Program-made: the position numbers and the translations under genes
Assembly (NCBI RefSeq): GCF_004216905.1
Contig: NZ_SGXJ01000010.1
Span: 1 to 64,000, forward strand
DNA length: 64,000 nt
Source of the DNA: Kribbella sp. VKM Ac-2569
GTDB taxonomy: Bacteria > Actinomycetota > Actinomycetes > Propionibacteriales > Kribbellaceae
Reading direction: 5' to 3'
Shown here: one piece after another, positions 23,304 through 23,703 of the stretch
Layout: every line of letters begins with the position of its first letter
Numbering within the stretch: position 1 is the stretch's first letter
Notes under the pieces: generated by a model
Told to the model about the DNA's origin: nothing
The model's input: the letters and a program-made list of their open reading frames with translations, nothing else
Database searches by the model: none

Positions 23304-23459
23304 ATGAAGGTATGGAAGGTGGTAGGGCTTGCGGGACTCGTCGGCGTCGCCGCGACGGGCGTCGTGATCGCACGGGGCGAGCGCAAGCGCCGTGCGTACA
23401 CGCCGGAAGAGGTCCGCGATCGCCTCAAGACCCGGGTCAAGGAAGCAGCTAACGCCTAG
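23304..23459 (+). CDS. 51-aa single-pass membrane protein
   Basis: ATG 23304 to TAG 23459. The product begins MKVWKVVGLAGLVGVAATGV, one membrane helix, then a basic stretch ARGERKRRAYTPEEVRDRL and a charged helical tail. Third codon positions are GC-rich as in real genes here. It diverges from the YiiX-like gene with only 17 bases between starts. Small 'MKxWKxxGLAG...YTPEEVRDRL' proteins are a familiar actinobacterial type with no known role. Its stop is immediately followed by the large hairpin element. Confidence 0.7.
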   Translation: MKVWKVVGLAGLVGVAATGVVIARGERKRRAYTPEEVRDRLKTRVKEAANA

Positions 23460-23461
23460 GG

Positions 23462-23619
23462 CGTGTCTGACGGTTCCACGCCGTAGCGAGCAGGTGCTCG
23501 GTGCGGTGGCTCGGCGTGCTGGAGCGAAGGCGTCGATGTGGTTTCATCGTCGCCTTTGCTCCAGTGCGGCGAGGTGCCGTGCCGAGTGCCGCGCAGTAGG
23601 CGTGGAACCGTCAGACACG
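23462..23619 (+). ncRNA. 158-nt long hairpin, candidate structured RNA or MITE-like palindrome
   Basis: Outer arms 23462-23482 and 23599-23619 are perfect 21-bp complements. After a small internal loop (23483-23492 against 23591-23598), pairing continues from 493/590 to 519/564 and from 520/563 to 538/545, closing on a 6-nt loop at 23539-23544. Only three or so mismatches occur (509/574, 514/569, 533/550). Nine pairs are G-U or U-G when read on the plus strand (495/588, 496/587, 502/581, 503/580, 507/576, 508/575, 517/566, 518/565, 526/557). On the minus strand these would be A-C mismatches, so the fold favours a plus-strand transcript. Confidence 0.6.
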
Positions 23620-23640
23620 ACCTCCCCCGGGCGACAGAGT

Positions 23641-23703
23641 CGGCCGGGCAGTCGTGGTGCGCCGTAGCTCGGTGGTACGGCGTCGTCCACGTCTGCCCGG
23701 CCG
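23641..23703. terminator. second long hairpin, probable terminator
   Basis: Arms 23641-23657 and 23687-23703 pair over 17 positions with one T-T mismatch (23652/23692). An inner stem 23660-23666 with 23676-23682 (CGCCGTA/TACGGCG) closes on a 9-nt loop. It lies just past the 3' end of the minus-strand phosphoesterase gene and after the 158-nt hairpin, so it can end transcripts from either side. Confidence 0.65.

Follow-up and report, generated by a model that had tools for sequence, protein, structure and literature searches.

What kind of genetic element is the 158-nt hairpin that lies beside a small membrane protein gene in Kribbella sp. VKM Ac-2569? The hairpin (positions 23462-23619) falls within the window analysed here, a 64,000-nucleotide stretch of contig NZ_SGXJ01000010.1, and a first-pass annotation made from the letters alone had called it a candidate structured RNA. 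In particular, that annotation observed that departures from Watson-Crick pairing in the inner stem were mostly G-U on the plus strand, where the opposite strand would carry A-C, and took this to be the product of selection on the fold of one strand rather than of a plain palindrome or a decaying MITE.

The hairpin at the window site

Folding confirmed the hairpin, which is far stronger than chance would produce. The plus strand of 23462-23619 folds at -132.6 kcal/mol (z -16.3; 0 of 200 shuffles folded equally well) and the minus strand at -102.8 kcal/mol. The plus-strand MFE fold contains 43 G-C, 17 A-U and 9 G-U pairs, the nine G-U pairs being those of the original description. The 21-bp perfect arms, also as first described, constitute the longest perfect inverted repeat (span of 200 bp or less) in the 64-kb window; in 30 first-order Markov resamples of the window the longest was 12-16 bp. 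Complementarity of the arms extends to 23458-23482 and 23599-23623 with one mismatch, and 23458-23623 is a 166-bp imperfect palindrome, of which the covariance model of the family described below matches 23459-23622. The features of the site are as follows.

23458-23623, plus strand: the complete mobile hairpin, A GGG...CC T (the covariance model matches 23459-23622)
23459-23482, plus strand: 5' outer arm, complementary to the 3' arm and variable among copies (mean column entropy 0.85 bits)
23483-23512, plus strand: conserved core, 5' half (GTAGCGAGCAGGTGCTCGGTGCGGTGGCTC), with conserved tandem G-U pairs (mean entropy 0.25)
23513-23565, plus strand: inner stem and apical hairpin (TCGATG..CATCG), also retained in a second subfamily (mean entropy 0.44)
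23566-23598, plus strand: conserved core, 3' half (GCGGCGAGGTGCCGTGCCGAGTGCCGCGCAGTA) (mean entropy 0.19)
23599-23622, plus strand: 3' outer arm, which covaries with the 5' arm (mean entropy 0.98)
23456-23459, plus strand: CTAG of the 5' junction, with the TAG stop of the 51-aa gene, its final two bases coming from the element
23304-23459, plus strand: upstream 51-aa gene, by inspection that of a small membrane protein; flank, outside the element, and matched in 38 of 38 genomes
23641-23703, no strand assigned: second hairpin, -52.1 kcal/mol, outside the element and retained in close relatives that are free of the element

The element had been placed as starting 2 bases after the small gene; instead, the TAG stop of the 51-aa gene (23457-23459) overlaps the first two element bases. 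Four close relatives in which the site is empty (G022, G016, G011 and G025) carry TGA at this stop. The second large hairpin reported to follow the first is indeed present at 23641-23703, although it is not part of the element: close relatives without a copy have it too, between two convergent genes. (This segment, like the 3' flanks in L096-L122, holds a terminator-like double hairpin, with an inner CGCCGTARCTCGGTGGTACGGCG in most of the relatives shown, flanked by the convergent small gene and a metallophosphoesterase-like gene, so named by inspection.)

A dispersed family in Kribbella

The hairpin belongs to a non-coding family of about 164 bp that matches significantly in 37 of 38 Kribbella genomes (best match E <=1.6e-8 in all 37 and <=5e-31 in 33 of them); the exception is G028 (0.06). 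The genome from which the window comes has nine full-length or near-full copies, the window copy included, together with fragments and reverse-strand echoes. Three complete assemblies have 21-28 matches each, split partial matches being counted, and listed copies number 9-26 per assembly across ten complete assemblies. Outside the genus, 59 genomes from three other families of the order gave weak matches only (best E 6e-5), and among at least 120 stretches listed by a scan of a whole contig collection, those recognised as elements from fold and core were, judged by eye, all from Kribbella. Phages, plasmids and viral contigs, searched partly by exact core pattern, gave no match. Nothing in Rfam reached the gathering score, the hits below threshold being almost only unrelated microRNA hairpin models, and our literature search brought up no recognised description of the family or of a replichore-oriented hairpin element in actinobacteria.

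For analysis of the arms we took 178 copies, of which 2 were skipped and 21 were set aside as shared sites under a flank-identity rule, leaving 155. In these independent sites the length between arm ends is 162-165 bp and the arms are 24 bp. As in a MITE, there is no coding capacity, the length is under 600 bp and the terminal repeats are inverted. The interior is conserved (0.19-0.25 bits per column in the core, 0.44 at the tip) and the arms are variable (0.85-0.98). A covariance model built from 27 diverse copies (less than 86% identical to one another) also reached a second subfamily, in which the arms are different and the core and apical loop are related.

Shortened derivatives of about 30-99 bp and solo arms also exist. 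At L278, L279, L286, L288, L291 and L295, solo arms or tiny hairpins (for example CTAGGGCGTGTCTCTCTAG) sit at CTAG and look like remnants of excision or deletion of the element. Separately, a Kribbella steppae locus (L234, around 7201, minus strand) retains the core with wholly different arms and no TAGGGCGTGTC ends, and L046 (1505-1827) holds two copies in direct tandem with a few bases between them.

Insertion at sites that are empty in relatives

The family is dispersed, intergenic and mobile. To model empty sites, we joined the flanks of 14 copies and aligned the joined flanks to relatives. At 13 of the 14 sites at least one relative aligned at 93% or better straight over the junction with the element absent; at the remaining site, L088, the sole alignment was 85% with a gapped junction. 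Identities over all relatives shown ranged from 85 to 97%. Two sites, L007 and L009, are filled in other genomes, where an interruption about as long as the element divides the matches.

The first-pass annotation had named many dispersed copies with target duplications as the sign of a MITE. The dispersed copies and empty sites are there, but exact short duplications occur at only 3 of 14 sites (TA at L073 and L076, TCA at L008); the other tested sites are one to a few bases off a clean duplication, or can be read as an insertion of A GGG...CCC T with no duplication. TA flanks both ends in 14 of 65 copies. At the 5' junction, C, T and A occupy positions -3, -2 and -1 in 35, 42 and 47 of 65 copies; at the 3' junction T comes first in 52 of 65 copies and is followed by A or C, A being second in only 23. 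The flanks are thus asymmetric in the same sense as the orientation described below, CTA being common before the 5' end. (Two loci, L423 in G025 at the L091 site and L443 in G011 at the L002 site, have a few terminal element bases between the flanks and are candidate footprints.)

Gene context was determined for 147 of the 155 sites. None of the 147 is spanned by a predicted gene, and neighbouring genes point in mixed directions (52 <<, 31 >>, 33 <> and 31 ><). Where a 3' gene end faces the element, the stop lies within 3 nt of the element end in 71 of 145 cases, whereas 5' gene ends come this close in 5 of 149. These counts are approximate, since the codon-score script misses short genes (the 51-aa gene among them) and for a further 21 of the 145 facing genes the predicted frame overlaps the element by more than 3 nt.

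One strand is maintained as a fold

If the family had spread as a plain palindrome, or were decaying, mismatches need not respect pairing. Standard pairs fill 98.9% of the pair cells in the 27 diverse copies, and pairing drops to 34-49% when the partner is slid by 1-3 columns. Covariation analysis of these copies showed that 30 of 66 pairs have changed on both sides, with 209 double-change cells compared with 49 in shuffles; the inner stem, 99.5% paired, takes part in this covariation. Neither a plain palindrome nor a decaying MITE fits, as the annotation had argued, and we rejected the latter because the double changes keep the pairing intact.

The excess of G-U over A-C likewise holds across the family. 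Among non-Watson-Crick cells in the 24 arm pairs of the 155 independent sites, 91 are G-U, 28 A-C and 68 other mismatches. Arm pair 1 in one subfamily accounts for 19 of the 28 A-C cells (setting this pair aside, after the fact, leaves 91 G-U and 9 A-C), and G-G at arm pair 5 makes up 30 of the 68 others. On a tree, 67 changes lead into G-U and 11 into A-C, with 41 from Watson-Crick to other mismatches. In 19 of the 20 loci of the second subfamily, aligned with a scoring that treats the two alike, the counts are 222 G-U and 11 A-C. The plus strand folds better than the minus strand in 155 of 155 copies with both RNA and DNA energies (means of -138 and -106 kcal/mol with RNA parameters). The element is thus maintained as a fold of one strand, that which is the plus strand in the window, and this strand may be selected as single-stranded DNA rather than as RNA. 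The tree also contains 369 double changes between Watson-Crick pairs, 168 of which are transversion pairs; these are hard to reach through G-U steps and speak against a simple path of successive RNA changes, and some repair or exchange between arms may therefore also act.

Copies lie in one orientation relative to replication

We set the origin at dnaA and placed the terminus opposite it. The plus strand then points toward the origin in 163 of 166 listed copies from ten single-chromosome assemblies (G011 26/26, G035 23/23, G023 19/19, G012 18/18, G013 18/19, G002 16/17, G015 12/12, G034 11/11, G027 11/12 and G004 9/9). In this count each place was given its higher-scoring strand, shared insertions were counted once per genome, and we excluded a 32-base partial in G011 (3185746) that agrees with the rule. 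In G013 and G002 the exception is one shared wrong-way insertion (L069, L350), which by its flanks is also present in G008 (L362). (The three positions, G013:C1:647876, G002:C1:2770218 and G008:C11:288542, would be useful for testing counter-selection.) When the nine copies of the genome under study were projected by synteny onto G011, eight followed the rule by eye, the window copy among them; L009 is opposite. The plus strand accordingly has the sense of the leading-strand template, not of the lagging-strand template.

Neighbouring gene directions are mixed, so replication is a likelier cause of the orientation than transcription, and we rejected an orientation set by transcription. We likewise rejected strand-asymmetric mutation. 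Read in plus orientation, the flanks of the 155 sites have a GC skew of -0.014 (Wilcoxon p 1e-5; 101 of 155 negative) and no T-A skew (p 0.94), whereas the skews of the element itself are +0.153 (GC) and +0.183 (T-A); since the flank GC skew is opposite in sign to that of the element, host GC skew explains neither the orientation nor the G-U bias. Because the two arms are near-identical, a transposase that reads only the ends cannot set the orientation, and because the orientation is almost absolute while the ends are symmetric, only the asymmetric interior or the target can supply the information. This interior asymmetry is exactly what leaves one strand foldable and the other less so.

A proposed mode of spread

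Given an orientation that is kept despite symmetric ends, and an interior asymmetry that amounts to strand foldability, the folded plus strand is the most economical candidate for the substrate. We therefore propose, with about even confidence, that the element is a non-autonomous mobile hairpin whose spread, in the form of a single folded strand, is coupled to the replication fork. The propagating form would be the plus strand folded as a hairpin, whether single-stranded DNA or a copied-back RNA. A putative enzyme acting in trans would integrate it at the replication fork, leaving the plus strand in the sense of the nascent lagging strand (that is, of the leading-strand template); the apical loop and the asymmetric G-U core would make a hairpin that is otherwise symmetric recognisable and polar. 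Targets would be short CTAG-, CTGA- or TA-like sites, often stop codons, with the terminal AG of the element restoring the stop. More tentatively, and with the balance somewhat against it, the family could represent a new class of bacterial mobile element, in which a hairpin spanning the whole element moves as one folded strand (single-stranded DNA, or RNA in a SINE-like manner) and is inserted at forks by an enzyme that is neither a Y1 transposase nor a transposase limited to reading terminal repeats; the near-absolute replichore orientation and the strand-specific G-U covariation would be its traces.

Several observations weigh against the single-strand route. The plus strand is off the lagging-strand template that IS200/IS605 elements use, the exact TA, TA and TCA duplications at 3 of 14 sites resemble the product of a double-strand transposase, the outer ends resemble the termini of resident IS5-type elements, and the 168 transversion pairs among the 369 inferred double changes are a further point. 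In addition, the Y1_Tnp profile PF01797 matched in only 1 of 38 Kribbella genomes, although it matched in 5 of 14 control genomes, E. coli included. On this ground we rejected mobilisation by Y1 or RAYT enzymes; PF01797 covers TnpA-REP only partly, according to the sections of PMC6006769 available to us, and a very divergent enzyme could therefore be missed.

Links to IS elements, and alternatives

An unlikely alternative is that the element is an ordinary MITE, mobilised in trans by IS5 DDE transposases (IS630 for the second subfamily) that cut CTAG-like targets, with contact to the fork or clamp setting the orientation and the fold a by-product. Indeed, the outer 13 or so bases (TAGGGCGTGTCTGA...) resemble IS5-type ends of the genus, even as the arms differ widely among copies. 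A pattern built from the element's ends found IS5-type loci in which both ends are element-like (L297, CTAGAGCGTGTCTGACAA and CTAGAGCATGTCTGACAAATTCC, about 0.9 kb apart; L303, CTAGGGACTGTCTC and CTAGAGCGTGTCTC) or one end is (L312, CTAGGGGGTGTCTGACAATTCC). Likewise, the CTAGTG.. ends of the second subfamily resemble IS630 ends of the genus, and the TA and TCA duplications would suit such an enzyme. Orientation bias is reported for several IS families with clamp-binding transposases in the parts of PMC5371812 consulted. The resemblance of ends supports DDE mobilisation, and the arms may adapt to resident transposases.

The distribution of enzymes fits this alternative poorly. NF033580, the sole IS5 model searched, matches in 10 of 38 genomes and in none of the copy-rich G011, G035 and G023 or the window's own genome (G000), in which we saw no IS with matching ends. 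When we looked by exact pattern for an autonomous element bounded by the same ends, the matches listed included no pair separated by about 1 kb, and the 20 places from the end-pattern search that we examined held hairpins, tiny hairpins and solo arms. We did not favour an IS5 parent, the ends being alike but NF033580, the one model searched, not co-distributed, and for the main subfamily we rejected an IS630 parent, the ends being different. Moreover, the arms, which are the parts a transposase reads, are near-identical at both ends and cannot set an orientation; the IS630-type genes of G027, inspected by eye, all lie on the + strand in both replichores; and the conserved interior with variable ends, as well as the preference for G-U over A-C, would be left unexplained.

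Orientation might alternatively arise after insertion. In this improbable scenario insertion is blind to orientation, deletion or counter-selection removes copies whose stronger plus hairpin is on the lagging-strand template, and A-C is favoured over G-U on the exposed minus strand. The greater stability of the plus hairpin in every one of the 155 copies, the position of the plus strand off the lagging-strand template in all but 3 of the 166 listed copies and the existence of deleted derivatives of 47-99 bp are as it would predict, as are the solo arms. However, at the mean energies given above both strands form very stable hairpins, and mismatches should then accumulate, yet the inner stem is almost completely paired and covaries. 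The wrong-way insertion common to G013, G002 and, by its flanks, G008 indicates that wrong-way copies can persist.

Very improbable is a polar host-function site (KOPS- or Chi-like) or a terminator, spread by transposition and kept by the host: near-perfect polarity among the listed copies and the 71 of 145 closely abutting stops would suit it, but positions differ among close relatives, 33 of 147 sites lie between divergent genes and arm-only copies exist. Equally hard to credit is the discrete structured RNA gene first proposed, which we rejected in its plain form; the covariation and plus-strand bias behind that proposal stand, but an RNA gene is too narrow a description for mobile copies with empty sites, 9-26 of them listed in each of ten complete assemblies, polymorphic among relatives, in mixed gene neighbourhoods and with no Rfam family.

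Relation to known elements

Tn7 has unlike ends, whereas those of the Kribbella element are symmetric. The TnsE pathway of Tn7 nonetheless offers a precedent, in that insertion orientation correlates with replication (PMC5371812, in the part available). Closer in kind are IS200/IS605 elements such as IS608 and ISDra2, in which structure is strand-specific and orientation follows replication, as the accessible portions of PMC5371812 and PMC6006769 describe; the Kribbella element shares both properties (163 of 166 listed copies for the second). It differs in that its better-folding strand is off the lagging-strand template, where IS200/IS605 elements have their structured strand, one hairpin spans the whole element, some sites have 2-3-bp duplications and Y1_Tnp is unmatched in 37 of 38 genomes. 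Together with REPINs, elements of the IS200/IS605 type partly fit a folded-single-strand mode, to judge from excerpts of PMC5371812, PMC3116915 and PMC6006769.

REPINs themselves (REP doublets associated with RAYT/TnpA-REP) are, in the excerpts at hand, short dispersed intergenic hairpins with compensatory changes that are thought to move via single-stranded DNA. Their ends are conserved and their spacer varies, whereas in Kribbella the ends vary and the interior is conserved; the lack of a Y1_Tnp match in 37 Kribbella genomes and the near-absolute replichore orientation of single listed copies set the two further apart.

MITEs of the Correia/NEMIS, RUP and ERIC type are dispersed elements of roughly 100-200 bp with inverted ends and tightly folded transcripts, and RUP ends resemble a resident IS630 (partial texts of PMC10969869 and PMC3049150). 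The Kribbella element is like them in size class, dispersal and inverted ends; unlike theirs, its ends are not conserved among copies, and we found neither a G-U strand bias nor replichore orientation described for them in those partial texts. Finally, IS5-family elements of Kribbella (L297, L312) share terminal CTAG(G/A)G..GTGTCTGA-like bases with the element; they encode a transposase, which the hairpin element does not, and NF033580 is confined to 10 of 38 genomes.

Discussion

The window hairpin is a member of a mobile hairpin family with replication-linked orientation in the soil bacterium Kribbella, and its near-uniform orientation suggests an unusual, testable form of single-strand spreading. 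A near-symmetric element that follows a 98% orientation rule among listed copies and shows wobble on one strand is a natural record of strand-specific, fork-coupled movement without a known enzyme. If this reading is correct, a new mobilising activity could be sought in actinobacteria, and the combined signature of covariation and polarity could find similar elements in genomes already sequenced. Where insertions reuse a stop codon, they illustrate how elements of this sort can remain nearly neutral, and the family as a whole lends itself to testing the influence of replication on mobile DNA.
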